64,000 bases of DNA, from assembly GCF_028649655.1 (NCBI RefSeq), contig NZ_JAQSLN010000003.1, positions 434,001-498,000 on the forward strand, given 5' to 3'. The notes below the pieces were generated by a model, which searched no databases, was not told where the DNA came from, and worked only from the letters and a program-made list of their open reading frames with translations. Each line of letters begins with the position of its first letter. Position 1 is the stretch's first letter. Made by a program: the position numbers and the translations under genes. Shown here one piece after another: positions 46,545 to 53,105 of this stretch. Source of the DNA: Halobacteriovorax sp. GB3 (lineage in GTDB: Bacteria > Bdellovibrionota > Bacteriovoracia > Bacteriovoracales > Bacteriovoracaceae).

Positions 46545-46550
46545 TGAATT

Positions 46551-46580
46551 AAGCGCTCACACACTGAGCGCTTTTTTTTC
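46551..46580. terminator. Terminator after trxB, shared with the convergent response-regulator gene
   Basis: AAGCGCTCA-CACAC-TGAGCGCTT forms nine base pairs followed by T8. The left arm contains the stop codon of the minus-strand gene. It is strong for trxB and weaker for the opposite strand. Confidence 0.85.
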
Positions 46581-46934
46581 GCTTGTTAGACACGCTAAAA
46601 ATTCCTCAAGATCAAACGGCTTACAAAATGTACGGTCAGCTCCGGCCTTAGCAGCAAGCTTTAAGTACAAATCTCCCGAATGAACGCGACCACCTGAGAT
46701 TGCAATAATCTTGAGTGCCGGATAATCGGCCTTAAGTTTTTGGACAAGAGACACACCATCGAGCTTAGGCATGGCCATATCTGTGACGACGCAGGAATAA
46801 GTTTCATCAACGAGATCAAGGGCCTCTTTTCCGTCACTAGCGCAAACGACGTTGATTCCCTCATCCTGTAAAAACTCGTTGAGTATCTCTCTTAAAAACG
46901 CATCATCATCGACTAAAAGTACTTTATTTTCCAT
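46557..46934 (-). CDS. Single-domain response regulator (CheY-like receiver)
   Basis: The product has 125 residues, a receiver domain only. The acidic pocket is in 'KVLLVDDDAFLREIL', the phosphoacceptor Asp is in 'SCVVTDMAMPKLDG', the switch Ser in 'IIAISGG' and the conserved Lys in 'TFCKPFDLEEFL'. With no output domain it must act by protein contact, as CheY or Spo0F do. No kinase gene is adjacent; the histidine kinase at 12745 or the CheX-like protein at 6725 are possible partners by class only. The gap 46935-47060 upstream is AT-rich with no clear feature. Confidence 0.94.
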   Translation of the reverse strand: MENKVLLVDDDAFLREILNEFLQDEGINVVCASDGKEALDLVDETYSCVVTDMAMPKLDGVSLVQKLKADYPALKIIAISGGRVHSGDLYLKLAAKAGADRTFCKPFDLEEFLACLTSEKKALSV

Positions 46935-47060
46935 AGATAAATTTTAGCAAGGTTTTTACTTAGATAGATAATAAAGATTACCTTAACAAAAAATCAAGGT
47001 TTCTTACCTGAGCTCATTCCAAATCAAGAAAGATTGATTCAATCATGATAAAATATCAAA

Positions 47061-48350
47061 TTAAGGAAGGTAGTCCTTGATGCCCCAGGCCTCTAACTCA
47101 ACAATTGTTGCTTTAGAACGCTCTAAATTAATTGGAACTTTTCGAATCATATAGCCACCACGTATGGAAATTTCAAGAAGTCCTTTTGCTTTTGAGCCAT
47201 CTCTAATTTTACCAGCAAGATAGAAATCAGCACTAGACTTATACCGAGGATCCTTAGATTTCATAAATCGTGTGTAGAATACGTGCCCCCCGCCAAACTC
47301 TCCATGACCATTAATTTCACTTAGGGACAATTTATAGTTTTTAGAATTATCGCTCATTTTATACTTTGAAGTTTTTAGAAAATTTAATCGAACATGAACA
47401 AGAAAACTACTTGAACGTCCATCAATATCACTTTTCTTAGACTGTTCACTTAGAAATTGAAACACTTTCCAAAAGACATCATTTTCACAGACGTATTCAA
47501 CACATTCAATCTCTGCACCAGAGAGCCCCTGTTTTCGTAAAAAATCCATGTGTGGTCTTGTAAAGAAGGCCTGTTCACCGAGTTCGAAATTGAGATATTT
47601 TATACTTCTATTTGATGAGAACGGATCTGGTCTTTCTCTTTCTAAATAGTAATAATAATTTAAATGAGCAGAAGTTACAGGGACCGCCAAATCATCCTGA
47701 AGATAAAAAGAAAGACTTCCTGTATTGGCCAATCGAAAGTTCCCGACGACATTTAAAATCTTCACACTGTGAATATAATCTCTAAGCTTTTGATCGAAGA
47801 AAAAATCATTTCTAAGTCCAACGAGAAAATCTGAGCCAAAGAGCATATCTCTCAATTCTTTTTTTCCAAAGATAAAGTCTTTCACCTTACGAAGATAGAG
47901 AGGCACCTTAGCAATCTGGGTTCCCTGAAAAGGAGTACCCAAAGTTATGATGTGCTCTATACGATTTTTTACAATCTCATAGGAGTGCTGACTTAACTTT
48001 TTTCGAAGAGCAGCTCTAATCCAATTAAATGTAACAAGACCACCTTGAGAGTGAGCAATAACACTAACTTTATCATTCTGTGAAAGATCGAGATTTTCTT
48101 TTAAATAAGAATCTAGCATCTCTGTAAAGTCATTTACATCGTATTGATCTTGTCCAGTAGGATAGGAGAACATATATTTCTTATGGGCCCTTAAGGGATA
48201 CTCATCTCCTAACTTCTTAAGCAGACCCTCATCCATATAGTCAAATGTTCCAGGTCCTGAAGCGATTCCATGGATAAAAATTAAATGATGAACACTCGCA
48301 AGAGATTGGAGCGAAAGAAAAAAGAAAAATAAAATAAATATTTTTTTCAT
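47061..48350 (-). CDS. Secreted lipase/PGAP1-like alpha/beta hydrolase
   Basis: A signal peptide (MKKIFILFFFFLSLQSLA) precedes an alpha/beta-hydrolase fold. The oxyanion strand is 'HHLIFIHGIASGPGTFDYM'; the nucleophile elbow 'VSVIAHSQGGLVTFNWIRAA' has the G/A-H-S-x-G Ser. A Leu/Phe-rich region follows ('IITLGTPFQGTQIAKVPLYL'), which is typical of PGAP1-like and triacylglycerol lipases. The C-terminal ~120 residues form an extra beta-rich domain. Secretion suggests it acts on lipids or esters in the periplasm or, in a predator, on prey; that is inference. It stands alone, downstream of the PilZ-GAF gene on the same strand. Confidence 0.8.
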   Translation of the reverse strand: MKKIFILFFFFLSLQSLASVHHLIFIHGIASGPGTFDYMDEGLLKKLGDEYPLRAHKKYMFSYPTGQDQYDVNDFTEMLDSYLKENLDLSQNDKVSVIAHSQGGLVTFNWIRAALRKKLSQHSYEIVKNRIEHIITLGTPFQGTQIAKVPLYLRKVKDFIFGKKELRDMLFGSDFLVGLRNDFFFDQKLRDYIHSVKILNVVGNFRLANTGSLSFYLQDDLAVPVTSAHLNYYYYLERERPDPFSSNRSIKYLNFELGEQAFFTRPHMDFLRKQGLSGAEIECVEYVCENDVFWKVFQFLSEQSKKSDIDGRSSSFLVHVRLNFLKTSKYKMSDNSKNYKLSLSEINGHGEFGGGHVFYTRFMKSKDPRYKSSADFYLAGKIRDGSKAKGLLEISIRGGYMIRKVPINLERSKATIVELEAWGIKDYLP

Positions 48351-48384
48351 ATCTCTATTTTAGGTAAACTCAAGACCAGTGCAA

Positions 48385-50325
48385 CTAACTGGCTAAAGAT
48401 TCCGATTCCTCTAATATAATGCCAAAGTAATTTCGATATAATTCTCGTCCATGAAAAAGTCGTTCCCTAAAGGCATCAACTTTCATTTGAAACTTATCAG
48501 CGACCTCTTCAAGAGTAAGTCCTTTTTGCAAATGCTTATCCGAGAGAGCTGTTAAATAGAGTGTTTCTAAGTCTGCGTGAGAAAGAGATCTCAACTTCTC
48601 TGGTTCAACACCTTCAAGGATTGATTCAAAGATATGAAATTGTCCTAGGTCAACATCGATAACAGGAATAACATCCGGAGATATCTCTTCGATATAATGA
48701 AAGCTCGAGTTATAAAGAACTAATCGATCAATTGCGGTTTTTAACTCTTGAATATTACCTGGCCAATCGTAGTTTTTAAAAAAATCAACAATCTTAGGAC
48801 CAAGCCTTTTGACATACTGACCTTGCTCGTGACAAACCTTTTCCAAAAAAAGTTTCATGAGTGGAATAATGTCTTCCTTTCTCTCTCTTAGAGAAGGAAT
48901 GTGAATCATTTTCTTAGAGATTTCTTCAAACAAACTCAATTCAAAGTCTGAGCTATTTTTTAAGTAAATCAAACTCTTTGGACTCGTACAAATGAATCGA
49001 ATATCTGCTCTTGATTTCATCAATTTTAAAAGTTCATTTTGACACTCAATTGTAAGAGAGCAAATATCTTTAAAAATAATTGTTCCACCAGAATAGAGAT
49101 CTAGTTTACCTACCTTTTGATCGCCTCCAATGAGTAAATCATTTAGATCTTTGACATCGAGTACATCATGACAATTGACGACCCCACGGCCAAGATCCTT
49201 TCTTTCACTTTCTTGATGAATCATTTCTGCTAGTAGCTTCTTCCCTACACCATATTCGCCTGTAATTAAAACTGTTTCATCTGTAGACTTCACCATATTT
49301 ACAAAGCGCTTAAGGTCATCGTTTTGCTTTGAAACACCGACAAGAGAGAAAGACTGATCTTGAACAAACTCTAACTCACTATCTTTAAGAGGTGTTCGAT
49401 GAAAGTCTCTCCAAATTGATGTAATCGTAAATGAGAGGATTTCACAAAAGAGAATATCTTCTCCAGAAAAGAAGTCCTCTCCTTTTTTATTGGCAAACTC
49501 TAAAATACCAACAATAGAGCCCTGATCATCATATACCGGGATAAGCATCAAACTTGTCGTTTTAATGTCGTAATATTCTGTTAACTCTCGGTAGAGAGGA
49601 TCTGTTGAAAACTTTGTTATTCTTGTATTAATGATTCTTCTTTCGTTTAAAACTTTTTCTACAAGAGAGTGACGAAAAGAGAAAACGTTATCTGAGAGCG
49701 TTTCCTTTTCAAAATCATACAAGACGACTTGAGAACGCTTTCTATTGATCGTATAGAAGTGATATCTTTTGGCCTTAATAACTCTGGCCGTTTCTCTAAA
49801 AATGACTGTTTGAAAACTTCGAAGCTGATCAAACTTTCTCATGTCTTGATAGAGACTTTTAAGAAGTGAGATTTTTTGTAAACTGGTTTGTTTTTTTACC
49901 ATCCCTTCATTACTAATCAATTCAATGAGATGGTTTTTTAATCTCTTAGTAGAAAAGCTAGAAATAAACTTTTCAATGAACTTTTTACTCATCCCCTGCT
50001 GTTCAACATCGAACTCAAGGCCACAAAAATACTTAATACATTCACCATAGTCATTGAGAATTTGATTAACTCTCGTTAAGCGTGATGAGATGAAAAATTC
50101 AACGCCTTTGAAAGAAAGAGCAACATAGTATGTTTGATTTAGCTGCATATTCGTTCGACTATAGAAACCCACTCCCGAGAGAGACAAATTCACTAATTCA
50201 ATCCCACCAATTAAATTTTCCTCAATATTGGAACTGGTAGATACTGAAAATTGGATTTTATCTTCACTCGTCACAGGGATGCGAAATGAACGATGTGACC
50301 TTAACTTGCTAATATTGTTTACCAT
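48385..50325 (-). CDS. PilZ-GAF-AAA+ regulator with degenerate sigma-54 activator module
   Basis: Residues ~8-125 are PilZ-like ('HRSFRIPV' and 'NLSLSGVGFYS', the R-x-x-R and N-x-S-x-x-G elements that bind cyclic-di-GMP). Residues ~160-305 are a GAF domain. Residues ~325-545 are an NtrC-type AAA+ domain with an intact Walker A (GEYGVGKK, 356-363) and 'IPSLRERKEDI'. However, the GAFTGA loop is missing, Walker B reads GGTIIFKDI instead of the usual GGTLFLDEI, and 'WPGNIQELK' has Gln where the sensor-II Arg belongs. The tail has a helix-turn-helix-like stretch (603-625). It is unlikely to activate sigma-54 or hydrolyse ATP. Its divergent neighbour has the same plan. Confidence 0.75.
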   Translation of the reverse strand: MVNNISKLRSHRSFRIPVTSEDKIQFSVSTSSNIEENLIGGIELVNLSLSGVGFYSRTNMQLNQTYYVALSFKGVEFFISSRLTRVNQILNDYGECIKYFCGLEFDVEQQGMSKKFIEKFISSFSTKRLKNHLIELISNEGMVKKQTSLQKISLLKSLYQDMRKFDQLRSFQTVIFRETARVIKAKRYHFYTINRKRSQVVLYDFEKETLSDNVFSFRHSLVEKVLNERRIINTRITKFSTDPLYRELTEYYDIKTTSLMLIPVYDDQGSIVGILEFANKKGEDFFSGEDILFCEILSFTITSIWRDFHRTPLKDSELEFVQDQSFSLVGVSKQNDDLKRFVNMVKSTDETVLITGEYGVGKKLLAEMIHQESERKDLGRGVVNCHDVLDVKDLNDLLIGGDQKVGKLDLYSGGTIIFKDICSLTIECQNELLKLMKSRADIRFICTSPKSLIYLKNSSDFELSLFEEISKKMIHIPSLRERKEDIIPLMKLFLEKVCHEQGQYVKRLGPKIVDFFKNYDWPGNIQELKTAIDRLVLYNSSFHYIEEISPDVIPVIDVDLGQFHIFESILEGVEPEKLRSLSHADLETLYLTALSDKHLQKGLTLEEVADKFQMKVDAFRERLFHGRELYRNYFGIILEESESLAS

Positions 50326-50433
50326 ATTCTTCTTCCTTAAAGATCGCTACACCCTCAACTTATCGGAAAAAATAAAGTCCTCTTTACTAAATCTTCCAGA
50401 CCTTTTGACCGACAAGGACACTAGGAGATTCAT

Positions 50434-52185
50434 ATGGATAAAACCCTTTTAAACTACCAATTTTACAAATCTTTTCGTATGCCAATGGAAGAGAAGGATA
50501 AAGTATTTGTAAAAATAACGAGAAAACAAGAAGGGAATATTGAAGAAGTCTTCAGTGGAAGAATTATCAATATCAATCTCACTGGATTAAATTTATCTTC
50601 CCAAAAGAAAATAGCAGATGGAGAGGATTTAGATATTCTCATTTATACCAAGAGGTTTTTTAACAACTGGGATTTCAATGTTAAAGGGCGCGTTGTTCGT
50701 TCATTTTTCAGCGCCGAAGGAAAAAGTGAAATCGTCTACGGTGTAAAGCTAGAGACTCAAGATAAAGACTCTGAACTTCATTATTTTCTAAAAGACTTTA
50801 TCCATCGCTTTTCAAAGTCTAGACTTAAAAACTATCTCATTGAATCGGCCATAGCTGAAAAGCGCATCTCGTCAGAAGAAGGAATAGAGCTCTACTCTCT
50901 CATGTGTGCTCTATATGTCGGAAGTACAAAAGATCCACTTCAAGAAGAATTAGAAAATGCCTGTCAGATTCTCGATGTAGAAATTGGAAGAATTTATAAA
51001 ATTAATATTAACAATCAAACTCTAGAGAATATAGCAACAACAGAAGAGAAAACGATCAAAGAAAAAGATTACAGAAAGGGACTAACTGGTGCCGTCTTTT
51101 CTAGTTCTTCTCTTTATAATCTAGATTTAAGACGAGTCGACAAGCACCCTTTCAATCAGCCAAATATGAAAACGGCCCTTGCTCACCCTCTCTACAATAG
51201 GGATCATAAAACAATTGGGGTTATTGAATTTATTAATAAAAAATCCTCTAAGAAGTTTTCAATTAATGATGAGCGTTTTGTAAAACTCGTTGCAAGTTTA
51301 GTTTCACACCATTTTGATGACTTTGTCCCTCAATCGAGAGTCACTCAAATTGAAGAACTTAATCCTCTTGATCAAACATTCCAATCTCTCTACGTTGGGA
51401 CAAGTCTTGAATCAATTGAGATTAGAAAAATCATTAACTCTCTTAAAACAAAGTCTGAAAACCTTCTGATCGTTGGAGAAAAAGGGGTTGGAAAAAACTT
51501 TCTTGCCACAGGAATCCATAATCAGGGATGTCAATCAAGTGATGAACTTGTGATCTTAGATTTTCAAAAAGACTCCGTTCGCGAGGAATTTGATAAAGAA
51601 GATTTTCTAGAAAAATTAGGACTAGACTCCCCAGGTACAATTATCATTAAAGAGGTTGGCAATCTTTCAATCTCAGAACAAAAATCACTTTATAACTTAA
51701 TTAATCGATCTCAAAAACGATTTTTAACAACATCATCTAAGGACTTATTGAGTCTTGTTGAAAATGGTCGCTTTTTAAAGAAGCTCTACTTCTTTCTTTC
51801 TAAGGCCCTTTTACACCTAAAGCCACTACGAAACAGAGAGAGTGAAATCATCGACATCGCAGAGTATCTCATCAAGCAAGAGGCTCAAAAGCGTAATCTC
51901 AGAAGGCCAAAACTTGATGAAGAAACAATCGATCGTATCCTCTCCCACTCATGGCCAGGCAATTTCACTGAGCTTCAGAAAGTCGTTAAGAAGTCTATGA
52001 TGAAGTACAATCCTGAGAATGACTTTTATTTAGATCTCTTACCTGATCAAAAAGTCTATGTCCCCACACGCAATAAGAAGATGTATAAGATCATAGAATC
52101 ACTTGCTCAACATAGCGATTCCACAATCTTTTTTGACACTCATAAAAAGATTTTAGAGGAAATTATCAAGAGAAAAGTCTCATAA
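50434..52185 (+). CDS. PilZ-GAF-AAA+ regulator, divergent paralogue, degenerate ATPase
   Basis: This has the same order as the divergent gene: PilZ-like residues ~8-125 ('YKSFRMPM', 'ININLTGLNLSS'), GAF ~150-300, AAA+ ~320-530 with Walker A GEKGVGKN (348-355). Again there is no GAFTGA loop, Walker B is PGTIIIKEVG without the Asp-Glu pair, and sensor II reads 'SWPGNFTELQ' without Arg. The helices after the PilZ domain ('SRLKNYLIESAIAEKRISS') match those in its partner ('KRLKNHLIELISNEGMVKK'). The C-terminus is short, ending in a basic helix. Start ATG has GGAG upstream. The pair probably arose by duplication and may form a hetero-oligomer; function unknown. Confidence 0.75.
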   Translation: MDKTLLNYQFYKSFRMPMEEKDKVFVKITRKQEGNIEEVFSGRIININLTGLNLSSQKKIADGEDLDILIYTKRFFNNWDFNVKGRVVRSFFSAEGKSEIVYGVKLETQDKDSELHYFLKDFIHRFSKSRLKNYLIESAIAEKRISSEEGIELYSLMCALYVGSTKDPLQEELENACQILDVEIGRIYKININNQTLENIATTEEKTIKEKDYRKGLTGAVFSSSSLYNLDLRRVDKHPFNQPNMKTALAHPLYNRDHKTIGVIEFINKKSSKKFSINDERFVKLVASLVSHHFDDFVPQSRVTQIEELNPLDQTFQSLYVGTSLESIEIRKIINSLKTKSENLLIVGEKGVGKNFLATGIHNQGCQSSDELVILDFQKDSVREEFDKEDFLEKLGLDSPGTIIIKEVGNLSISEQKSLYNLINRSQKRFLTTSSKDLLSLVENGRFLKKLYFFLSKALLHLKPLRNRESEIIDIAEYLIKQEAQKRNLRRPKLDEETIDRILSHSWPGNFTELQKVVKKSMMKYNPENDFYLDLLPDQKVYVPTRNKKMYKIIESLAQHSDSTIFFDTHKKILEEIIKRKVS

Positions 52186-52304
52186 AAACCGAGTCAATGA
52201 CGCGGCTATTAATTTTCTTTTGACAGACCAAGACCACCTTGAAAGAATATCTCTAGAGTTCAATGATTGAACTCATGAAGAATCACAAACCGAGGATTGG
52301 TCAC

Positions 52305-53105
52305 ATGGATATCTTTAACTACCAAACGTTTGATACGTCTCTAAGTAAGAAAACAAGAAGTCTCACTCTTACTTTTAAAAGGGAGACCATCAATAGAGAA
52401 ATGCTTTTCGAACTTGAAGGCCTTTTTAATTGGCTAAGTTCAAAGATTGAGATCTCAACTCTCATACTCACATCTCATAGTGATATTTTTTGCCAAGGAA
52501 TTGATTTAGAAGATTGGAAAGATAAAGGGCCATCTGAACTCCAGGCTTTCCTTAAGCGTTTTTCTAAGCTCACAAATGCTCTCACTTACTTACCTCAAAC
52601 AGTCATTGCAGATCTTAGGACAGATGTCGCTGCCGAGGGAATTGAACTCGCTCTCTGCGCTGATATTCGCATTGCTCGTTCAGGCCTTTCATTGAATTTC
52701 AACTTTCTAGAAAGAGGTCTTATGCCGCAGGCGCCAATGTATGAAAGGGCCCACCAACTTTTTGGAATGCAGAATCTAAAAAATTGGATTTACTCTAAGA
52801 AAAAACCTAGTACTGAAACTCTTATTCACAACGGATTTCTTCTTTCAACTTATGCCGCCAATGAAGAAATATCAGAGATCCTCACCTACCTTCGTGATGT
52901 CTCTCCAATTTCACGCTTACAAAGTAAAATGGCCTTCAAAGTTTACGATGTCGACTTTGAAAAAGAGCGCATTGAAAAAATCGACTCATTTCAAATGGCC
53001 ACTCTTAGCATTGAAGACTGGAAAAAAGAAAAAGAAGACTTCACTCCTGCCCGTGAAATTGGCTCAACATTAAAAAGAAAAGAAGTTGAAAAAAATTACG
53101 CTTAA
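52305..53105 (+). CDS. Enoyl-CoA hydratase/isomerase (crotonase) family protein
   Basis: The ATG at 52305 has GAGG nine bases upstream; the in-frame ATGs at 52263 and 52275 have none. The product has 266 residues. Crotonase-fold elements are 'LILTSHSDIFCQGIDLEDWK' (the family's F-S-x-G-x-D-L strand) and 'VAAEGIELALCADIRIARSG' (oxyanion-hole helix, usually G-G-G-x-E-L-A-L-x-C-D). The first Gly residues of that motif are changed to Ala-Glu-Gly, so activity may differ from hydration of enoyl-CoA. The last residues overlap the end of umuC by four bases. No other fatty-acid gene is adjacent. Confidence 0.8.
   Translation: MDIFNYQTFDTSLSKKTRSLTLTFKRETINREMLFELEGLFNWLSSKIEISTLILTSHSDIFCQGIDLEDWKDKGPSELQAFLKRFSKLTNALTYLPQTVIADLRTDVAAEGIELALCADIRIARSGLSLNFNFLERGLMPQAPMYERAHQLFGMQNLKNWIYSKKKPSTETLIHNGFLLSTYAANEEISEILTYLRDVSPISRLQSKMAFKVYDVDFEKERIEKIDSFQMATLSIEDWKKEKEDFTPAREIGSTLKRKEVEKNYA

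Follow-up and report, generated by a model that had tools for sequence, protein, structure and literature searches.

A divergent pair of PilZ-GAF-AAA+ proteins without sigma-54 remodelling parts in Halobacteriovorax sp. GB3, and their possible link to a conserved paralogue

We analysed a stretch of 64,000 nucleotides from Halobacteriovorax sp. GB3 (contig NZ_JAQSLN010000003.1, positions 434,001 to 498,000; hereafter the window), in which two divergent homologous genes, A and B, are separated by a 108 bp gap and encode proteins of one plan: PilZ-like domain, GAF domain, AAA+ module and lid. Judged from their sequences, A and B are a pseudo-enhancer-binding pair in which Walker A is kept and the parts used for sigma-54 remodelling are absent. 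The same genome encodes a third full-length member of the family, the PilZ-GAF-pseudoAAA-Fis regulator protein C, which the initial annotation of the window missed, and of which A and B are fast-evolving paralogues. The best explanation, which we hold tentatively, is that A and B are co-inherited non-catalytic sensor subunits that are made in the attack phase and act by protein contact, probably on C.

Gene layout and domain architecture

Alignment and Pfam agree with the initial annotation of A and B as back-to-back open reading frames with a common plan: the two proteins align over almost their entire length (26% identity, E-value 2e-40), and both match Sigma54_activ_2 (7e-20 for A and 2e-23 for B) as well as AAA_lid_14. 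The features of the three genes, including the helix-turn-helix (HTH) region of A, are as follows (window coordinates, except for C).

48385..50325, minus strand: gene A, 646 amino acids; PilZ-like, GAF, dead sigma-54-type AAA+, lid, decayed Fis-type HTH
49990..50304, minus strand: PilZ-like domain of A, residues 8-112, from homology to B and C and the beta-strand order in the model
49402..49830, minus strand: GAF-like domain of A, residues 166-308, from alignment to B and C, a GAF match in the orthologue L089, and the model
48703..49353, minus strand: AAA+ module and lid of A, residues 325-541, without GAFTGA, Walker B acids, arginine fingers or sensor-II Arg
49237..49260, minus strand: Walker A of A, GEYGVGKK, residues 356-363
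49063..49080, minus strand: Walker B remnant of A, IIFKDI, residues 416-421
48424..48579, minus strand: helical remnant of a Fis-type HTH in A, residues 583-634; helices in the model, no HTH_8 match, HTH intact in C
50434..52185, plus strand: gene B, 583 amino acids; PilZ-like, GAF, dead sigma-54-type AAA+, lid, no HTH
50515..50772, plus strand: PilZ domain of B, residues 28-113 (Pfam PF07238, 24.4 bits, cut-off 22.5)
50938..51306, plus strand: GAF domain of B, residues 169-291 (Pfam PF01590, 28.8 bits, cut-off 22.4)
51394..52047, plus strand: AAA+ module and lid of B, residues 321-538 (Pfam; Foldseek matches to NtrC1, PspF and FlrC)
51475..51498, plus strand: Walker A of B, GEKGVGKN, residues 348-355
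51640..51657, plus strand: Walker B remnant of B, IIIKEV, residues 403-408
C3:546511-548463, minus strand: protein C (L104, L090), 651 amino acids, outside the window and ~62 kb away

The structure models of A and B are weak overall (predicted local distance difference test scores of 63 and 62, respectively), and recover the AAA+ fold in each protein, A matching NtrC1 (Z 21.4, root-mean-square deviation 2.5, 220 residues) and B matching NtrC1, PspF and FlrC. Fold-search lists were filled by AAA+ matches, and support for the PilZ part comes from Pfam: the PilZ profile has no match in window A, and is matched by B, by two A orthologues (L082, 26.7 bits; L089, 29.0 bits) and by C.

Lost catalytic parts and the timing of their loss

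Aligned with canonical activators encoded by the same genome, both A and B have gaps at the GAFTGA columns, and the spacing from Walker A to Walker B is short (mostly 57 in A and 41-52 in B, compared with 65 in canonical activators). The Walker B acid pair is replaced by KD in A (FKDI) and KE in B (IKEV), and the sensor-II Arg is gone from both (NIQEL in A, NFTEL in B); the retention of Walker A and these three losses, all reported in the initial annotation, are confirmed. The arginine fingers, which lie in FREDLYYR in canonical activators, have also gone (FELSLFEE in window A, FLKKLYFF in window B), a loss that had been overlooked together with the missing DNA-binding domain of B. A hidden or displaced motif was also considered: scanning of the whole window proteins found no 6-mer within two changes of GAFTGA, and neither protein has an intact acid pair shifted in position.

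Across the family, the GAFTGA columns are gapped in 75/75 C, 17/17 A and 16/16 B sequences, none of which has an Arg at either finger position, and both losses are therefore older than the A/B/C split. The Walker B Asp-Glu pair is retained in 10 of the 75 C sequences and in no A or B, which indicates that it was lost more than once and rules out a single ancestral loss. The earlier proposal that the shared losses were fixed before duplication thus stands for GAFTGA and fails, or is at least unproven, for the Walker B acids. The Walker A Lys is retained in all 75 C, 15/17 A and 13/16 B sequences; ATP binding, also proposed earlier, is plausible for the window pair, in which Walker A is intact, and sits poorly with several B and two A orthologues in which it is broken.

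Cyclic di-GMP motifs

A and B resemble PilZ receptors of cyclic di-GMP (c-di-GMP) of the YcgR type in their match to the PilZ profile (for A, through its orthologues) and, in A, in the sequence NLSLSG, which fits the NxSxxG form of the (D/N)xSxxG motif. Unlike these receptors, they are fused to GAF and AAA+ domains, B has no Ser in the second motif (NINLTG), and just half of the RxxxR motif survives: A has HRSFR, B has YKSFR and C has mostly YQSFR. No A, B or C examined has an Arg at position one of this motif; the complete motif is found in at least six further PilZ proteins encoded by this genome. Two GGDEF proteins are encoded as well, and c-di-GMP may therefore be made in this bacterium; the genome has ten PilZ places.

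The initial annotation suggested that A and B may be pseudo-activators that bind ATP without hydrolysis and respond to c-di-GMP through PilZ. This reading is unlikely. The PilZ and GAF scores of B above cut-off, the Walker A kept in the window pair and the GGDEF and PilZ complement of the genome are consistent with it, and the GAFTGA-less regulator VpsR is cited in PMC10274813 as sensing c-di-GMP; but the Arg missing from all A, B and C, the Ser lost in B, the loss of the HTH and the broken Walker A of several orthologues argue against it. Binding of c-di-GMP by the A/B/C family is not supported by these motifs.

Protein C and the distribution of the family

C occurs in nearly all of the 129 genomes of the order that was searched, all of which fall in one family, at 43-82% identity. 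A and B are restricted to 17 of the 129 genomes, in five genera, and neither occurs without the other, although a contig end truncates B in one of these genomes; Bacteriovorax sp. BSW11_IV (L014) is among the carriers. Among the matches listed, those in the phylum outside the family were GAF-AAA-HTH only, starting from ~residue 140, and none was a full-length homologue of A, B or C with a PilZ domain. A tree of 85 sequences resolves A, B and C as one clade each (support 99, 99 and 100, respectively), and the genera branch in the same order in the subtrees of A and B, as is typical of two genes that are inherited together.

In most genomes examined, C precedes cdaA-cdaR-glmM, and it lies beside glmM where cdaA is missing. 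A strict tie of C to cyclic di-AMP through the cdaA neighbourhood is weakened by genomes that have no DAC domain, in which C stays beside glmM. The presence of C in genomes without RpoN was discarded as proof of sigma-54 independence, given that just a few draft genomes have no RpoN match. Another degenerate GAF-AAA-HTH activator homologue was observed in the genome of the window, at L010 1072-2622 (G000:C3, near 1235658), with GIVGGA in place of GAFTGA and LNN at Walker B.

FliA-type promoters and the operator-like dyad of C

The A/B intergenic regions hold divergent TAAA...CCGATAA elements; the FliA-type promoters of A, B and C were all missed by the initial annotation. Those of the window pair are:

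50360..50386, minus strand: predicted FliA-type promoter of A, TAAAGAGG-N11-TCCGATAA
50388..50415, plus strand: predicted, weaker FliA-type promoter of B, TAAATCTT-N12-ACCGACAA; stronger in most orthologous loci

When upstream regions were scored against the sigma-28 consensus TAAAGTTT-N11-GCCGATAA, A, B and C reached 18.8, 19.5 and 18.9, respectively, whereas the score of the 261 neighbouring genes used for comparison was 15.0 (p = 2e-9, 4e-10 and 3e-25 against these genes). The FliA-type promoters of the pair are conserved across the five genera, and a sigma-70 promoter scan of the A/B intergenic region found none. The window A promoter is one of 19 exact TAAA-N15..17-CCGATAA matches in the genome, vs 8 for the reversed control pattern, and FliA itself is encoded in the genome (272 bits). 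The element of A, B and C equals the Bdellovibrio attack-phase consensus TTAAG-N16-CCGATA, which marks 92/140 mapped attack-phase promoters (PMC3627812); FliA is essential in Bdellovibrio (PMC5430801). A and B are probably made in the swimming, prey-hunting attack phase. The FliA attack-phase regulon of Bdellovibrio bacteriovorus, a related predator lineage, shares TAAA/TTAAG-N16-CCGATA(A) promoters with A, B and C (PMC3627812, PMC5430801), for which FliA control is predicted.

The 19 exact matches (L197-L215) precede mostly genes for lipoproteins and exported proteins, together with one PilZ gene and one response regulator, a gene set reminiscent of the Bdellovibrio attack-phase set.

The C promoter is often accompanied by a dyad, TGCC-N10-GGCA, placed within a few bases of the -35 element on its upstream side; it is exact in 25 upstream regions, and the longer form TTGCC-N10-GGCAA occurs within two mismatches in 39/72 C upstream regions vs 3.8 in shuffles. 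In the whole genomes G000, G002 and G042, the dyad combined with a FliA promoter occurs once each, before C itself only, which suggests that C is autoregulated through this operator-like site. The dyad is missing from the A and B promoters, and the A/B intergenic regions hold no dyad above shuffles.

The DNA-binding domain

The C-terminus of protein C carries an intact HTH of the Fis type (HTH_8, 6e-10); there is no Pfam match to HTH_8 in A or B. In a C-terminal alignment of the three proteins, B ends ahead of the recognition helix everywhere, and the HTH of A is decayed in the window's genus and in g16 and deleted in g15 and g44. With no motor and, at least in B, no DNA binding, the pair is unlikely to be an enhancer-binding activator.

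A and B might alternatively be independent regulators of the TyrR/VpsR type, acting at sigma-70 or FliA promoters through a divergent DNA-binding end. GAFTGA-less homologues work in this way (PMC3162934, PMC10274813), and the C-terminus of A is helical in the window's genus, but the deletion of the HTH in B and in A of g15 and g44, and the absence of a dyad shared between the A/B intergenic regions, make such a role improbable.

Selection and co-evolution

Between G044 and G045, the ratio of the proportions of nonsynonymous and synonymous differences (pN/pS) is 0.20 for A, 0.16 for B and 0.07 for C, given as raw values in place of a corrected dN/dS because the synonymous sites of A and B are mostly saturated. 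All three genes are therefore under purifying selection, which is looser on A and B. That the pair is kept by selection, as was first proposed, is borne out by a pN of about one-fifth of pS between these close relatives and by co-occurrence in all carriers. Compared with C in the same genomes, the evolutionary rates of A and B are about fivefold higher and vary together (partial correlation 0.86 given C). When metabolic neighbours serve as the yardstick of species distance, the residual rate covariation is 0.71 for A-B, 0.84 for A-C and 0.62 for B-C, vs 0.15-0.24 with the adjacent fast gene c1.

We give little credence to the possibility that A and B are relics of a regulator that was duplicated and is slowly decaying under weak constraint. 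This would account for the fast evolution of A and B relative to C, for their small number of carriers, and for the stepwise loss of Walker A, lid and HTH in g35; it is opposed by the open frames of all carriers, the invariable presence of both genes, the low pN relative to pS and the conservation of the promoters across five genera.

Proposed function of A and B

Under the preferred reading, in which A and B are non-catalytic sensor subunits, FliA would make both proteins in the motile attack phase, where their GAF (and perhaps PilZ) domains would sense a small molecule or a partner. A and B would bind one another, and probably C as well, via the surfaces of their AAA+ modules and lids, and would tune C. 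C would itself act on sigma-70-family promoters, including FliA promoters, through contact rather than ATP-driven remodelling. A and B would thus be regulators of a regulator, and not enhancer-binding activators themselves. We infer the function of A and B from sequence, and this applies to the steps from promoter to expression, from GAF or PilZ domain to ligand, and from A and B to C. It is conceivable, though doubtful, that A and B, being without DNA binding, combine with C into a dead-AAA+ hetero-oligomer under the control of the flagellar sigma factor, in which they gate C during the attack phase.

Several observations weigh against the preferred reading. In the window, B has a weak promoter of its own (ACCGACAA), and no flagellar role is apparent for the genes that follow the 19 exact promoter matches. 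The covariation control is noisy, with the neighbouring gene c6 reaching 0.34-0.59, and covariation therefore supports contact but does not prove it; the B-C value drops to 0.29 with another reference. Finally, A of the window's genus may still bind DNA, in view of the helical HTH remnant that persists in its model.

Genomic neighbourhood

The genes flanking the pair in the window are:

47061..48350, minus strand: DUF676 esterase, 34 bp downstream of A, with a signal-like stretch at its N-terminus; possible operon partner of A in this genus
52263..53105, plus strand: enoyl-CoA hydratase-like gene following B; trxB and this gene flank the site occupied by the pair

In relatives without the pair, trxB and the enoyl-CoA hydratase gene are adjacent or separated by other genes. 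The interval between them (window 46545-52262; L180-L193) holds different genes per genus, or none, and adjoins a conserved mevalonate-pathway cluster, forming a variable site within an otherwise fixed order. A gene for a lone response-regulator receiver domain (window 46557-46934) follows A and the esterase on their strand and is kept in the sister species.

It is very unlikely that A and B form a two-protein sensor or scaffold for neighbouring envelope functions, unconnected to C: the neighbours do include exported or envelope proteins (in g1, the DUF676 esterase that follows A; in g35 and g44, LolA-like and FecR/beta-barrel-like proteins after B), but they vary from one genus to the next, whereas the pair is retained with its promoters, and the pair shares its promoter class and residual covariation with C.

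In g35 and g44, B is followed by a LolA-like gene and a gene for a large exported FecR-like/beta-barrel-like protein (L089 3557-6443 and the g35 counterparts); given these neighbours, an envelope function tied to the pair is possible.

Relation to known systems and significance

Homologues of enhancer-binding proteins that have no GAFTGA include TyrR, DhaR, HupR, VpsR and the NtrC proteins of Rhodobacter capsulatus and Caulobacter; several act at sigma-70 promoters, and some do so without hydrolysis (PMC3162934, PMC10274813). A and B share with them descent from sigma-54 activators, a deleted or altered GAFTGA loop and a kept AAA+ fold. These homologues keep a DNA-binding domain, whereas B has none and that of A is decayed or gone; peculiar to A and B are the PilZ-GAF input, the additional loss of the arginine fingers, the two divergent partner genes and the FliA-type promoters. 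C, in which the DNA-binding domain is present, appears to fit this kind of homologue. C shares with A and B its domain order, the absence of GAFTGA and arginine fingers, and a FliA-type promoter; unlike them, it has retained the Fis HTH, shows Walker A in 75/75 sequences, evolves slowly and has the operator-like dyad in many genomes. C is not a named family, and the literature searched held no description of a PilZ-GAF-AAA+ protein of the A/B/C kind.

Apart from FliA, few attack-phase regulators of this predator lineage are known; C, which has a recognisable operator-like site, is a candidate throughout the lineage. A and B would be accessory subunits that are amenable to genetic test. The pair extends the known decay of sigma-54 activators by one step, to proteins in which motor and DNA-binding parts have been lost and which are still under selection.

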